Assembly (NCBI GenBank): GCA_948468985.1
Contig: CAOKKG010000004.1
Coordinates: 1-64,000 of the forward strand
DNA from: an uncultured Eubacteriales bacterium
GTDB lineage: Bacteria; Bacillota; Clostridia; Christensenellales; Christensenellaceae
Direction: 5' to 3'
Length of the DNA: 64,000 bases
The notes under the pieces are model-generated. The model was given only the letters and a program-made list of their open reading frames with translations, was not told where the DNA came from and made no database searches. A program made the translations under genes and the position numbers. Below are positions 1 to 26,801 of the stretch, one piece after another. Each line of letters begins with the position of its first letter. Position 1 is the first letter of the stretch.

Positions 1-1431
1 TACAGGCATCGGGTATGCAACAAGACAACTCAGCAGCGAGTCTAAAAACCGGTTCATATATTGCCCGTACGCGTGCACCTCGTCCACAACGACCACCTTG
101 CCCGCCAACCCTAGGTGCTTGAGCATGAGGTGCCGCTGCTTGAGCGCGCCCAGCAGAAATTGATCGACCGTGCCGACCACAAAGTCGGCGAGCAGCTGCG
201 TCTTGCGCCCGAGGAAGAACGCGTGTGCCGAAAGCCCGGCGGGCGCATCCGGCGAAAACTCCGTCGTCAGGGCCGCATCCTCGTTCACCGACATCGCGTG
301 TTCCGCCAGCGCCGCAAATTCCTTGTTCAGCATCGCCTTGCCGTGCGCCAACTCATAGGACAACGGCGCCCACTGGGCAAACTGTCCCGCCCACCCGCTC
401 ACGCGTTCATTCATGGCGTTGGCCGTCGCCTGCGAGGGCAGGAAAAAGGCCAGCCCACCCTCCTGCCTTTTCTCGGCCAGTATCTCACTGGCGGCGAGCG
501 CTGCCTCTGTCTTGCCCATGCCCATCGGCGCTTCCAGGATAAACAGCCCCGGCTGTGCCGCCTCCCCGGCCGCCTTTTGCATCATCTGCTGCACGGCGTT
601 GCTCGCGGCAAAGCCAAACCGGGCACAGCAAAGGTCTTCGTATTGCCATTCATCGTTTGGCGCCCATTTCTCCGGGAGGTCCAGGCGGGCAATCGCCCGT
701 TCGCTGCGCGCGGGATAGGCTGACTCCCCCACCACACTCTGCCCATCGACAAGCGGAAAGAGCTCCGTATTGCTGGCCAGCCAGTCGCCCATGATGAGCA
801 GCCCAGAGAGGAGCAGCTGCGCGGGCTTGTCCAGCGGATATTGCCTGAGCGTGTCCGTCAGTTCCTCCTTCGTGGTGCCCGCCAGGCGAAAGGCCTGTTC
901 CAGCACGGCTTTCCAGCAGTCCTGCCACAGGTGAGCGTCGCCCCGGCGGCCGTACAAGTTCCCCTCGGCCGCCATCATATCCTCCCAGACAGGCGCACGC
1001 TGCAAAGTCTTTCCGTGGTGTGCGCCCACGATTGCGCAAAGTTCCTCCGGGATCTCCCGCTCGTGCAGGATGGCCGCGCCCGTGCAGGTGTGATGCGCAA
1101 AGGCGCGCTCCGCCGCGTCCGGCTGGGTGATGGTCTGCGAGTCCCACCCCGCGCGGGCGAATTCCAGCTCCATCCCGGCCACGCGCCCCAGCACCTGCGA
1201 TTGAAAGGCGGCCGTCGCCTTGCCGATATCATGCACCGCACCAAGAAATACCGCCGTCTGCAAAAACACCTTGCGGGGGAGTTTGACCGCCCGCCGCACA
1301 CCGGCCGGCAGCCATTTCTGCACCAAATAGCGCATAACCTCCGCCGTATCCCGCAGATGCATCCAGAGCGGCAGATCCTTTTCCGGATTCTGCGGATCCG
1401 TCTTGGCAATCAAGCATTCCCATGCGGTCAT
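1..1431 (-). CDS. cas3: CRISPR-associated helicase/nuclease Cas3 (partial, runs off the left edge)
   Basis: Cas3 is recruited by Cascade to a crRNA-bound target and nicks, unwinds and degrades the DNA. The 477 visible codons start at an ATG preceded by AAGGAGAATTG and stay open to the window edge. The HD nuclease domain comes first: His25, the HD pair in GAVHDIGKAT (about residues 64-73), then AHHTCTGA and GAHHGK. A superfamily-2 helicase follows, with a Walker A-like APMGMGKTEAAL near residue 300 and a DEVH box (VVVDEVHAYG) near residue 447. The helicase C-terminal half and any Cascade genes lie outside. The domain order fits a type I Cas3. The upstream repeats resemble type I-E repeats, so I-E is my inferred subtype. 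The gene is probably repressed by the guide RNA unit just upstream. Confidence 0.93.
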   Translation of the reverse strand, partial: MTAWECLIAKTDPQNPEKDLPLWMHLRDTAEVMRYLVQKWLPAGVRRAVKLPRKVFLQTAVFLGAVHDIGKATAAFQSQVLGRVAGMELEFARAGWDSQTITQPDAAERAFAHHTCTGAAILHEREIPEELCAIVGAHHGKTLQRAPVWEDMMAAEGNLYGRRGDAHLWQDCWKAVLEQAFRLAGTTKEELTDTLRQYPLDKPAQLLLSGLLIMGDWLASNTELFPLVDGQSVVGESAYPARSERAIARLDLPEKWAPNDEWQYEDLCCARFGFAASNAVQQMMQKAAGEAAQPGLFILEAPMGMGKTEAALAASEILAEKRQEGGLAFFLPSQATANAMNERVSGWAGQFAQWAPLSYELAHGKAMLNKEFAALAEHAMSVNEDAALTTEFSPDAPAGLSAHAFFLGRKTQLLADFVVGTVDQFLLGALKQRHLMLKHLGLAGKVVVVDEVHAYGQYMNRFLDSLLSCLVAYPMPV

Positions 1432-1501
1432 AGTTTCAATTCTCCTTTTCTCATTATTTCATTGTCCACGGGTACACAATTTATTAGCATTTAGTTTATT
1501 T

Positions 1502-1519
1502 CTCTTATCTTCACATGTT
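1502..1519 (-). promoter_or_regulatory. Protospacer-like target of the guide RNA in the cas3 promoter
   Basis: Read on the minus strand, AAC (1519-1517) stands where a PAM would be. It is followed by a 15-base stretch (1516-1502) identical to the mini-spacer at 1633-1619 except at spacer positions 6 and 12. Type I-E crRNAs flip out every sixth base, so mismatches at 6 and 12 do not weaken pairing. From position 16 the match ends, a length that would allow binding without efficient cleavage. Confidence 0.7.
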
Positions 1520-1520
1520 C

Positions 1521-1550
1521 TGTATAATAGATTCGACAAAAAAACCGCAA
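1521..1550 (-). promoter_or_regulatory. Putative cas3 promoter overlapping a guide-RNA target
   Basis: On the minus strand TTGCGG (1550-1545) and TATACA (1526-1521) are 18 bases apart, about 90 bases before the cas3 start codon. An overlapping TATTAT at 1529-1524 is an alternative -10. The match to the upstream mini-spacer begins at 1516, next to the -10, so a bound Cascade would block initiation. The -35 is imperfect; the promoter call is an inference. Confidence 0.5.
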
Positions 1551-1564
1551 TTCCTGCCTCGCAG

Positions 1565-1715
1565 CAAAAAAAATTGCGATTTTTTTCGGCACCCCCGCTG
1601 CCGCGGGGAATATACAAACTCCTATCTCCACATAGGATCACCTCCGCTGCCGCGGAGAAAGCTTCACACACCCACTGCCATCGTCGGCGAGGTGCGCCGC
1701 CCGTCACATCGGGAC
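1565..1715 (-). ncRNA. CreR-like cas-regulating guide RNA (two degenerate repeats and a mini-spacer)
   Basis: On the minus strand a degenerate repeat (1662-1634), a 20-base spacer (1633-1614) and a second degenerate repeat (1613-1585) follow each other. Both repeats keep the type I-E hairpin pattern. The stem is CTCCGC/GCGGAG in one and CCCCGC/GCGGGG in the other, so a paired change preserves the hairpin. The first repeat ends in GGTGATCC, like I-E repeats of Gram-positive bacteria. A promoter lies upstream and an A-tract/T-tract hairpin with eight T residues ends the unit at about 1565. The spacer matches the cas3 promoter. This layout is that of cas-regulating RNAs (CreR), which guide Cascade to repress cas genes. 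Transcript ends are estimated. Confidence 0.75.
1585..1662 (-). repeat. Pair of degenerate type I-E CRISPR-like repeats, 49 bases apart
   Basis: Repeat copies lie at 1634-1662 and 1585-1613. They share 19 of 21 bases across the core (1639-1659 against 1590-1610); the two differences are complementary across the stem. The 49-base period is shorter than the usual 61 of type I-E arrays, so this is not an ordinary array. Confidence 0.75.
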
Positions 1716-1721
1716 ACTTCT

Positions 1722-1750
1722 ATTATACCTGCAGCACCGCCGAAACGCAA
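1722..1750 (-). promoter_or_regulatory. Promoter of the guide RNA unit
   Basis: TTGCGT at 1750-1745 and a perfect TATAAT at 1727-1722 are 17 bases apart on the minus strand. Initiation near 1715 would leave about 50 bases of leader before the first repeat. Confidence 0.65.
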
Positions 1751-11397: not shown

Positions 11398-12774
11398 TTA
11401 CTTTCTGTGAATCTGATACCGCCCCTTGGCCCAATTCGCCTTCACGAGCTCCCGTGCGCGCCCGATCGCGAGTGCCTCCGCAGGGACATCCTTGGTTACC
11501 GTCGTCCCCGCGGCGATATACGCGCCGTCGCCCACCTGCACGGGCGAGATCAAGTTGGTGTTGCACCCGATAAAGGCGCCGTCACCTACGACCGTCTTGT
11601 TCTTTTCCTTGCCATCGAAGTTAACGAACACCACGCCGCACCCGATGTTGATGTCCTCACCCAATTCCGCGTCGCCCACATAGGTGAGGTGCGAAACCTT
11701 GGTCCCATCGCCGATCACGGCGTTTTTTGTCTCTACAAAGTCGCCGATCCGGCAATGGTTGCCGATCCGGGTACCTGGGCGCAGATAGGCGTTCGGCCCG
11801 ATCTGCGTATGGTCGCCCACCTCCGCCTGCAAAAGGACGGAGTTTTCCACCGTCGTCGCGTCGCCGATCGTGCATCCCACAAGGCGGCTGCCCTGATACA
11901 GCGTGCTCCCGCGCCCGATGCGGCACTTGCCCTCCAAAATGACGCCAGGATAGATCACCGTGTCCTCGCCGATCTCTACCTCCGGACCAATATAGGTCGC
12001 GGCTGGGTCGATCATGGTCACGCCCGCGAGCATCAGCTTTTCATTGATGCGCGTGCGGAGCGCCGCCTCCGCCTCGGCCAGCTGCACGCGCGTGTTGACG
12101 CCCACGCATTCGCGCATATCCTCGATCTGGATACTGCGCACATCGCCGCCCGCGCGGTACAGGATGCCGACACAGTCGGTCAGGTAGTATTCATGCTGCG
12201 CATTGTCCGGCGTCAATTGTGCAAGCGCCCGGAGCAGCGCAGAGGTCTTGAAGCAATAGAAGGAGAAGTTGAGCTCCTTGATTTTCTTCTGCTCGCTCGT
12301 CGCGTCCTTGTCCTCGACAATGCCGCAGATCCGCCCCACCGCGTCGCGCACGATGCGCCCATAGGGCGGCGTCTTTTCCGGGCAGGCCGTGAGCAGCATG
12401 CAATCGCATCCGCTCTTCCGCGTCTCCTCTGCCAGCCGTGCAATCGTCTCCGGCCGGATGAGCGGCATATCCCCAGCCAGAACGATTGTATAATCGCTGT
12501 TTCGAATCTCCTCCTGCGCGGTCAGGACGGCGTGTCCGGTGCCCAGGCGCTCCGCCTGATACACATAGCGGAACGCCTCGCCCAGCGTTTCTCGCAATTG
12601 CTCGCCGCCGTTTCCATATACGAGCACCGGCTTTTCCGTCACGGCGCGCGCCGCCTCGGCCACCCATTCCACGAGGCTCCGCCCCGCCGCCTTGTGCAAT
12701 ACCTTGGGGAGGGCGGAATGCATCCGCGTGCCCTCGCCCGCCGCCATAATGACTACTTCTATTTTCTGCTGCAT
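11398..12774 (-). CDS. glmU: Bifunctional UDP-GlcNAc pyrophosphorylase/glucosamine-1-phosphate acetyltransferase
   Basis: GlmU makes UDP-N-acetylglucosamine for the cell wall. The 458-residue protein starts at MQQKIEVVIMAAGEGTRM after AGAGGA. The N-terminal nucleotidyltransferase has the AAGxGTRM loop and PKVLH lysine. The C-terminal half is a left-handed beta-helix of hexapeptide repeats (about 250-440; TYIGPEVEIGEDTVIYPGV). The region upstream of the ATG in the same frame belongs to mnmA and is not part of the gene. It is 17 bases downstream of mnmA and in one operon with pth and mfd. Confidence 0.97.
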   Translation of the reverse strand: MQQKIEVVIMAAGEGTRMHSALPKVLHKAAGRSLVEWVAEAARAVTEKPVLVYGNGGEQLRETLGEAFRYVYQAERLGTGHAVLTAQEEIRNSDYTIVLAGDMPLIRPETIARLAEETRKSGCDCMLLTACPEKTPPYGRIVRDAVGRICGIVEDKDATSEQKKIKELNFSFYCFKTSALLRALAQLTPDNAQHEYYLTDCVGILYRAGGDVRSIQIEDMRECVGVNTRVQLAEAEAALRTRINEKLMLAGVTMIDPAATYIGPEVEIGEDTVIYPGVILEGKCRIGRGSTLYQGSRLVGCTIGDATTVENSVLLQAEVGDHTQIGPNAYLRPGTRIGNHCRIGDFVETKNAVIGDGTKVSHLTYVGDAELGEDINIGCGVVFVNFDGKEKNKTVVGDGAFIGCNTNLISPVQVGDGAYIAAGTTVTKDVPAEALAIGRARELVKANWAKGRYQIHRK

Positions 12775-12791
12775 CGCTTTGTTCCTCTCGT

Positions 12792-13865
12792 TCACTCTAA
12801 AATTACGTCTACCGGGCCGCCGCCCAGGCATTCGTCGCCGCTGTACAGCACGGCGTATTGCCCCGGCGTGACGGCGCGCTGCTTTTCCCGCGCCTCGATG
12901 AGGACATGGTCGCCCTCCACATAGACATGCACCTTCTGATCCGGCTGCCGGTAGCGGAACTTCGCCGTGCAATCGAATTCCTTCACATCCATCGGGTTGA
13001 CAAAGCTGAACGACCCGACCGCGCACACCCGGGAATACAGCTTCGGGCTGTCCTCTCCCTGCTCTACATATAATATGTTGTTTTTCAGGTCCTTATCGAC
13101 GACGAACCACCGTTCGCCCGTCCCGCGACCGCCGATATTGAGCCCGCGGCGCTGCCCCAGCGTGTAATACATGAGCCCCTGATGCATGCCGATGTATTCG
13201 CCGGCGGTCGTGCGCATCTCGCCAGGCTGCGCCGGGAGATAGCCCTGCAAAAACTTGCGGAAATTGCGCTCGCCGATGAAGCAGATGCCGGTGGAATTCT
13301 TCTTGTCCGCCACCGGCAGGCCGGCGTCCCGCGCAATCTGCCGGACATATTCCTTCGTATATCCGCCGACGGGGAATTCCACCCGTTCCAATTGCTCTGC
13401 CTTGAGCGTGCACAGGAAATAGGATTGATCCTTGCGCGAATCGCGCCCCTTTAGGAGCCTTGTGCCGTCCCATTTGTTGACGCGGCAATAATGCCCGGTC
13501 GCAATCTCCTCCGCACCGATGTCCAGACAAAAATCCAAAAAAGCCTTAAATTTGATCTCCTTATTGCACAAAACATCCGGATTCGGCGTCCGCCCGGCCT
13601 TGTATTCCTCGAGGAAGAGGGAAAACACCCGTTCCCAGTATTCCCGCGCAAAATTGACCGAATAATAGGGGATGCCGATCTTGTCGCAGACGCGGCGGAC
13701 ATCCTCAAAATCCTGATCTGCTGTACACACGCCGTTTTCATCCTCTTCGTTCCAGTTTTTCATAAAAACGCCCATGACATCATAGCCCTGCTTTTTCAGC
13801 AGATAGGCGCTGACGGCGGAGTCTACCCCGCCAGAAATTCCGATCGCAATCTTTGGTCTGCTCAT
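12792..13865 (-). CDS. mnmA: tRNA-specific 2-thiouridylase MnmA
   Basis: MnmA thiolates U34 of tRNA-Glu, -Gln and -Lys. The 357-residue protein begins [23 protein letters not shown] with the PP-loop SGGVDS. Catalytic cysteines are in [11 protein letters not shown] and in [10 protein letters not shown], and the ATP pyrophosphatase and C-terminal barrel domains are complete. An upstream GTG is possible but the ATG fits the family. This is the first gene of the leftward operon with glmU, pth, mfd and the foldase gene. Confidence 0.96.
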
Positions 13866-24935: not shown

Positions 24936-26801
24936 TTATCCAAGCACCGGCGCTTCCGCCGCTTCTGTGAAGAGCTTTTCGAACTCCTCTCCCGAAATTT
25001 TCTCCTTTTCCATCAAGACCTTGGCGATCTTGTGCAGCTTTTCCATGTTGGCCTGTAAGATCTCCTTCGCACGATCCATGCAGCTGACCAGCTGCTTTCT
25101 GAGCTCCGCGTCGATCTGTGCCGCGACCTGCTCGCTGCATTCCTTAGACTGCACAAGCTCCTTGCCCAAAAAGACTTCCTGGCTCCCGCCGTGGAACACT
25201 GGGCCGATCACATCGTTCATGCCGTATTTCACGATCATAGCGCGCGCCATGCGCGTCGCCCGCTCGATGTCGTTGCTCGCGCCCGTCGTAATGTCGCCCA
25301 GCACCAATGCTTCCGCCGCGCGGCCGCCCAGCATCATCGTTATCTCGTCGACCATTTTGGACTTGAAATAGTGGCTCTCGTCCTCATCGGGCAATGTCAT
25401 GGTATACCCCGCCGCCATGCCGCGCGGGATGATGGAAATTTCGTGCACCTCGTCGCAGTGCGGCAGTACCTTGGCGCAGATCGCGTGCCCCACTTCATGA
25501 TAGGCCGTGACCATTTTGTCCTTTTCGGTGAGCACGCGGCTCTTCTTCTCCGGCCCGGCGATAACGCGGGTGATGGCTTCCTCCACTTCCTGCATGCTGA
25601 TTTCTGTCTTATGGAAGCGCGCTGCCAAAATGGCTGCTTCGTTCAGCACATTTTCGAGATCCGCACCCGAAAAACCCGGCGTGCGCTTGGCGATGACCTT
25701 GAGGTCCACATCCGCACCGAGCGGCTTTTTCTTGGAATGCACGCGCAGGATCTCCTCGCGGCCCTTGACATCCGGCACATTGACGACAATCTGCCGGTCA
25801 AAGCGCCCCGCGCGCAGCAGCGCCGGGTCGAGGATATCTACGCGGTTGGTCGCCGCCAGCACGATGATGCCCTCGTTAGACACAAACCCATCCATCTCGA
25901 CAAGCAACTGGTTGAGCGTCTGCTCGCGTTCATCGTGGCCGCCGCCCAGACCCGCGCCTCTCTGCCGGCCGACGGCGTCGATCTCGTCGATAAAAATGAT
26001 GCAGGGGGCGTTCTTTTTCGCATTGTCAAACAGGTCACGCACGCGCGCCGCGCCCATGCCGACGAACATCTCCACAAAGTCCGAGCCCGTGATGCTGAAA
26101 AACGGGATGCGCGCCTCGCCGGCGACCGCCTTGGCGAGCAGCGTCTTGCCGCATCCGGGCGGACCAACCAACAGGACGCCCTTCGGGATGCGCGCCCCGA
26201 ATTTGGTGAACTGCTTGGGGTCCTTCAAAAATTGGACGATTTCTTCCAATTCCGCCTTTTCCTCGTCCTCGCCCGCGACATCGGCAAAGGTCGTCTTGAC
26301 ATTTTCGCCCATCGTCATCTTGGCGCGGCTCTTGCCGTAATTGAGACCCTTGCCGCCGCCCTGCGTCTGTCGGTACATCATGTACCACAGCGCGCCCATG
26401 AGCAGGATGGGCACAAGATAGGGCAGCACGACATCCAACCAGATCGAGTTGTCCTGGATCTTTTGGTAGGTGATGCTCACTCCGGCGTCCGCCAGGTCCT
26501 GCACCCCGAGCGCCGCCTTGAGGTCAATGTCCACCTGATAATACGAAGGTAGGTAGACATAATAGTCGTATTTCTTCGGGAAGGCTTCCTTTTTGATCGT
26601 CGAATCCTTTTTGAGCGCCACCGCCTCGTATCCGACGATCGTGATATCCGTAACCTCGCCGGCCTCTACCTTTTTTAAGAAGTCCGTATAGCTCAAGACG
26701 GAATCCTTTTTGGCGTCGGTATTGACGAGGGATTGTGCAACAATAAAAATGGCCAGTATGAGCAGCAGGTATACGAGCGGCCCGCGGGCAAATTTCTTCA
26801 A
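24936..26801 (-). CDS. ftsH: ATP-dependent zinc metalloprotease FtsH
   Basis: FtsH is a membrane-bound hexameric protease for membrane and regulatory proteins. The 621 residues begin [25 protein letters not shown] (first membrane helix). An extracytoplasmic domain, a second helix near 115-135, the AAA+ domain (Walker [14 protein letters not shown]; Walker [10 protein letters not shown]; second region of homology) and the zinc site HEVGH follow. The C-terminus is short after the protease domain. It follows hpt as in other Bacillota. Confidence 0.97.

Follow-up and report, generated by a model that had tools for sequence, protein, structure and literature searches.

It has been stated, in passages of PMC13131331 and PMC12737573 that cite Liu 2023 (Cell Host Microbe), that CreRs autorepress type I-B, I-E and V-A systems, and passages of the same two papers describe this repression as lifted if Cascade is scarce, filled by crRNA or blocked by anti-CRISPRs. 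The unit analysed here resembles the CreRs of those passages in being a mini-CRISPR near cas genes, in its partial match to a cas promoter next to a PAM and in its subtype, I-E, whereas it differs from them in that its spacer has 20 nt instead of about 32 nt, in that it stands upstream of cas3 as the likely first gene of a whole operon, and in that it is known from sequence alone. Regulatory mini-arrays and crRNA-like elements were reportedly also described by Shmakov et al. in NAR in 2023 (cited in PMC10651486), with type I-F as the experimental case, and the unit resembles these in being a stand-alone repeat pair whose spacer partly matches a cas promoter. Additionally, it shares with the CreA of type I-B CreTA (PMC8501985, PMC9458426) the two degenerate repeats, the pairing at positions 1-5 and 7-11 and the retention of half-repeats. 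In the case of I-B CreA, pairing takes place at positions 1-5 and 7-11, mutations at 6 or 12 are harmless, and each repeat keeps the half that is used in the mature RNA (PMC8501985). However, CreA represses a toxin RNA with a TTC PAM and the I-B Cascade, whereas the putative target here is a cas3 promoter, with an AAY PAM and a I-E system. A further parallel is tracr-L (Workman 2021, cited in PMC10651486), a single-guide RNA that occurs naturally with Cas9; there the effector represses its own operon through a short guide match, as is proposed here, although tracr-L as described in that citation belongs to type II, has a single-protein effector and involves no mini-array.

The window, by which the whole analysed stretch of 64,000 nt is meant, is the start of contig C4 in an assembly of 1.47 Mb that is about 92% complete. 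Its first gene is a cas3 truncated by the contig end, and contig C9 terminates in the remainder of this gene, the two contigs sharing an overlap of about 19 nt in which they differ, as judged by eye, at two places. The gene order on C9 is cas3 remainder-cse1-cse2-cas7-cas5-cas6e-cas1-cas2, followed by an array, and the cas genes are found on one strand, tightly packed or overlapping. The NCBIfam type I-E models for Cse1, Cse2, Cas7, Cas5e, Cas6e, Cas1e and Cas2e all scored above their curated cut-offs and Cas3 domains were recognised, so that the effector genes of this genome belong to the unit's own subtype. Judging from this arrangement, cas3 is likely the first gene of one operon that includes Cascade, and a complex that represses its promoter would therefore hit the whole operon. 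Cas2e carries a DEDDh (DnaQ-like) exonuclease domain as a fusion partner (L023:12966-13853, minus strand).

The array on C9 has 28-nt repeats (CTTTTCCCCGCGTAAGCGGGGGTGATCC) and 33-nt spacers, and each of the 16 repeats examined is followed by T or C. In type I-E systems this base mirrors the last base of the PAM, and the array is thus consistent with an AAY PAM, which AAC fits. A protospacer search of the array spacers against phage records gave no convincing match, and eight exact-pattern scans of virus contigs returned three matches (flanks CGT, CGT and TTC), about the number expected by chance, from which PAM confirmation was not obtained. Inside the array, a "spacer" of about 590 nt (L023:11456-12044; C9 ~25455-26043) forms an open stretch on one strand jointly with the adjoining repeats and bears a weak, sub-threshold likeness to phage MuF_C/LPD domains, with no match in PHROGs; it represents a very large insertion flanked by repeats, or else a join made in the assembly. 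Past it lies a last repeat-spacer-repeat (L023:11365-11460), whose final repeat has an altered end (GGGGGGAGATAA) and is probably the trailer end of the array.

Table 1. Features of the creR unit, its putative target and cas3 in the window, and the loci of the other CreR-like units.
Feature	Position or loci	Strand	Details
cas3, N-terminal part	1..1431	-	477 aa (HD + helicase start); truncated by contig end, rest on C9
Protospacer, cas3 start region	1502..1516	-	13/15 match to spacer nt 1-15
PAM AAC	1517..1519	-	29th bases of the array pyrimidine in 16/16; AAY in 15/15 CreR units kept
Predicted cas3 promoter	1524..1550	-	TTGCGG (1550-1545), gap 15 nt, TATTAT (1529-1524); weak consensus, exact -10 uncertain
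creR intrinsic terminator	1538..1586	-	arms 1586-1572 / 1552-1538, 15 nt, 93% complementary, then TTTTTTT
Psi-repeat 2	1586..1613	-	ATATTCCCCGCGGCAGCGGGGGTGCCGA; hairpin intact, handle half degenerate; 20/28 identity to array repeat
Predicted mature CreR, 49 nt	1593..1641	-	8-nt handle GUGAUCCU + 20-nt guide + 21-nt 3' hairpin end
Spacer, 20 nt	1614..1633	-	ATGTGGAGATAGGAGTTTGT
Psi-repeat 1	1635..1662	-	GCTTTCTCCGCGGCAGCGGAGGTGATCC; GTGATCC (5' handle half) intact; 22/28 identity to C9 array repeat
Predicted creR promoter	1722..1750	-	TTGCGT (1750-1745), gap 17 nt, TATAAT -10 (1727-1722); predicted from sequence
The 14 other loci	L115, L155, L160, L179, L187, L190, L199, L201, L212, L213, L218, L220, L059, L068

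The initial annotation had described upstream of cas3 a complete unit with a promoter, two degenerate I-E-like repeats with a compensating stem change, a 20-nt spacer and a terminator, all on the cas3 strand (Table 1). All of these parts were found again except that the promoter is less secure than it had appeared, its -35 hexamer being weak and its recognition having been made by eye, with no score in a consensus promoter scan; the cas3 promoter, with a similarly weak -35, was equally left without a score. A leader of about 60 nt separates the creR -10 from psi-repeat 1, in whose stem C7->T and G20->A compensate each other (TCTCCGC...GCGGAG), a C-G pair having become T-A. A single T at 1634, the 29th base, stands between psi-repeat 1 and the spacer. 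Psi-repeat 2 has lost GTGATCC and kept the full hairpin that provides the 3' handle. The terminator is a strong one and overlaps the cas3 -35 region. Thus, a single spacer lies outside the array between two degenerate repeats akin to those of the genome's own array, and the unit is not built as an ordinary array, since the two psi-repeats, 49 nt apart, are identical at 19 of 28 positions and the spacer has 20 nt, against the 28+33-nt units of C9. The psi-repeats differ from the array repeat chiefly in the loop, the outer bases and the one compensated stem pair, and their loops are nearer to each other than to the present array because both carry GGCA where the array repeat has GTAA. Judged by the halves that survive, the degeneration is functional, each psi-repeat keeping the half that would end up in the mature guide. 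It is known that in type I-E systems Cas6e cleaves after the stem of each repeat, and for this reason the ends of the mature CreR are predicted at 1641 and 1593.

An Rfam search of the region returned only a sub-threshold match to RF01719 besides a T-box divergent from creR; the latter is a leader (RF00230) in the segment 1786-2065 of the plus strand, where a perfect TTGACA-17-TATAAT promoter is also found, with an open reading frame from about 2115. A 6-bp hairpin between handle and spacer is predicted in the CreR, and a role for it in tuning CreR loading was rejected, the mean handle pairing of CreRs (0.47) differing little from that of own-array crRNAs (0.37). An exact 10-bp inverted repeat joins the -10 regions of cas3 and creR (1522-1531 / 1719-1728), and AATTGCG is common to their -35 regions; by this resemblance the two promoters may share ancestry.

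The claim that spacer positions 1-15 equal the cas3 promoter except at 6 and 12, with AAC in the PAM position, held up on closer analysis. Target ATGTGaAGATAaGAG and spacer ATGTGgAGATAgGAG are mismatched at these two positions only, the spacer having G and the target A at both, and the site is located 85 nt 5' of the cas3 start codon (1431), with no toxin-like open reading frame between. When positions 6n were left free, the best prefix match on both strands of the 180-bp region upstream of cas3 was 15 nt, whereas no match longer than 12 nt against the same region came from 20,000 shuffled spacers. In the window, ATGTGNAGATANGAG occurs in the spacer and in the target only, with 0 occurrences in 100 shuffles, and AAY followed by the seed 1-5/7-11 (AAYATGTGNAGATA) has a single site in the 1.47-Mb genome, even with one mismatch allowed. 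The spacer is therefore partly complementary to a cas promoter next to a sequence whose PAM function we infer from the array pyrimidines and from AAY in the 14 other units described below. It has been established that in E. coli type I-E about 5 seed bp are enough for Cascade binding and that interference needs >18 bp (PMC5904413). By that measure, the 20-nt guide, whose match extends over no more than 15 nt, is too short for interference; paired along 13-15 nt, such a guide should consequently bind its own promoter without self-cutting.

No cas3 orthologue was found in 7 genomes of the genus and 18 of the family, nor in 85k GTDB species searched with the single protein as query, and in order-level relatives (cas3 33-49% identical) no CreR was seen by eye at the corresponding place. 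Due to this lack of a close orthologue, the spacer-target pattern was examined on independent I-E units instead, in a sample of 80 I-E cas3 loci from GTDB and 74 I-E loci from Lactobacillaceae. A unit was defined as two repeats outside arrays, its spacer was scored against the surroundings with all positions weighted equally, and it was retained when a nearby match of score at least 8.5 stood next to AAY. The survey yielded 27 two-repeat units, 15 of which, this genome's included, were retained; among the top-scoring matches (at least 8.5) the PAM was AAY in 15/16, the exception being L207 (TTT), and L160, with the PAM AAT, was counted after a one-base register correction. In a control of 1,620 trials, with ordinary spacers from arrays as decoys in the same zones, 91 matches attained that score, and only 2 of them stood beside AAY. 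By BLAST, which allowed an assignment for 13/15, the first gene downstream of the target is cas3 in 12/15 (this genome included) and cse1 in 1/15. In the Ligilactobacillus agilis locus L115 (the same as L150), the mini-CRISPR lies around 12748-12912 and the AAY target is upstream of cse1.

In the 15-unit comparison, mismatches occupied 1/150 cells at positions 1-5 and 7-11 and 22/30 at positions 6 and 12 (11/15 at each), and the unit of this genome follows the pattern exactly. The mismatch rate at 6 and 12 (73%) is that expected without constraint (~75%), and transitions account for 9 of the 22 substitutions, which is no excess. Therefore, these two positions require no selection of their own and it is the other positions that are selected; the part of the earlier proposal by which selection on crRNA geometry includes transitions at the two free positions is not supported. 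Additionally, in all other units with a target, GTGATCC of psi-repeat 1 is intact or one base off, and that of psi-repeat 2 is never intact. On this comparison, AAY together with the 1-5/7-11 guide geometry is a rule of type I-E CreRs, and the mismatches at 6 and 12 are the outcome of freedom from pairing. Matches of 11 nt with a mismatch at position 6, beside AAC in L065 (Arcanobacterium, 20-nt spacer) and AAT in L044, did not exceed their nulls and were left uncounted. The L044 unit (L044 -6565, from a Blautia MAG) consists of a mini-CRISPR and a terminator directly upstream of cse1, its match lying on the opposite strand.

It is against this background that other origins of the unit have to be considered. 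A decayed, non-functional remnant of an array, whose spacer came by accident from the cas3 promoter or happens to resemble it, would account for the degenerate repeats, for a spacer shorter than the 33 nt of the array and for the fact that no relative in the genus keeps the unit. However, decay would not be expected to spare exactly the handle of psi-repeat 1 and the hairpin of psi-repeat 2, to compensate a stem pair, to keep a promoter and a terminator or to confine the mismatches to positions 6 and 12, and this layout is met with again in 14 unrelated I-E loci, which makes a remnant very unlikely. Less probable still is a CreA-type antitoxin RNA that guards a toxin, as in CreTA or CrePA, instead of regulating cas. 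Although the anatomy is common to CreA and CreR, the sole site with seed and PAM in the ~92% complete genome is the cas3 promoter and the next open reading frame is cas3; no toxin gene or toxin RNA emerged as the target of this guide, although the missing part of the genome could, with low probability, contain one.

The inverted repeat of the two -10 regions could also suggest a cis-acting RNA or DNA element of the cas3 leader, such as an attenuator or a protein operator, that only resembles a mini-CRISPR. Such a repeat is, however, little more than TATAAT and its complement, as expected from two promoters, while a terminator lies between cas3 and the unit, the half-sites of the psi-repeats match the CRISPR repeat of the genome and other genomes follow the same spacer-target rule, so that this explanation is the least credible of those considered. 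In nearly every feature open to sequence analysis, the promoter being the weakest, the unit is with high confidence a CreR gene of the type I-E kind.

For this CreR, we infer the steps of transcription, processing, binding, repression and derepression as follows. A short transcript would start at creR's own promoter and stop at its own terminator, and Cas6e would cleave both degenerate repeats to release a 49-nt crRNA-like RNA with a 20-nt guide. Cascade, probably a shortened version of it (20 = 32 - 2x6), would take up this RNA, and the complex would bind AAC and 1516-1502 over the cas3 start site, blocking RNA polymerase, with a pairing of about 13 bp that would be sufficient for binding and insufficient for cutting by Cas3. 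Since the operon encodes Cascade, the guide would exert negative feedback on its own effector. When Cascade is scarce, filled by ordinary crRNAs or blocked by anti-CRISPRs, repression would fall and the operon would be expressed again; the release by scarce Cascade or by anti-CRISPRs, which the initial annotation had also put forward, is carried over by analogy from published CreRs. Its proposal that cas3 is autoregulated gains from the I-E effector, the array, the PAM rule and the 14 other units, and has to be widened in that the putative target is not cas3 alone.

The guides of the 15 units measure 20 nt in five cases (this genome and four Lactobacillaceae loci), 31-33 nt in nine and 22 nt in one, and the 20-nt unit of the Arcanobacterium locus L065 showed no significant target within its locus. 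In a type I-B system, neither interference nor priming was left once a spacer had been shortened to 24 nt, while repression persisted (PMC10989794). Tentatively, and with some doubt, the type I-E CreRs could be divided by guide length into two classes, one of 31-33 nt and one of 20 nt (32 - 12), the latter directing a short, binding-only Cascade. If this were true, the short Cascade would lack two Cas7 subunits and a self-targeting guide would be safe by construction; the 20-nt guides would also be easier to outcompete, and the unit of this genome would represent its class.

CreRs of type I-E systems have been described before, and the present unit is a further, well-preserved example of the kind. 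To our knowledge, no CreR was previously known in this bacterial lineage. The unit would provide a complete and readable example of how a type I-E system regulates itself through a guide RNA, and in the comparison of 15 units natural sequences suffice to show that positions 6 and 12 are free to evolve and that 1-5 and 7-11 are nearly fixed. AAY plus 1-5 plus 7-11 may therefore serve as a practical rule in guide searches, and the proposed 20-nt class is directly testable.
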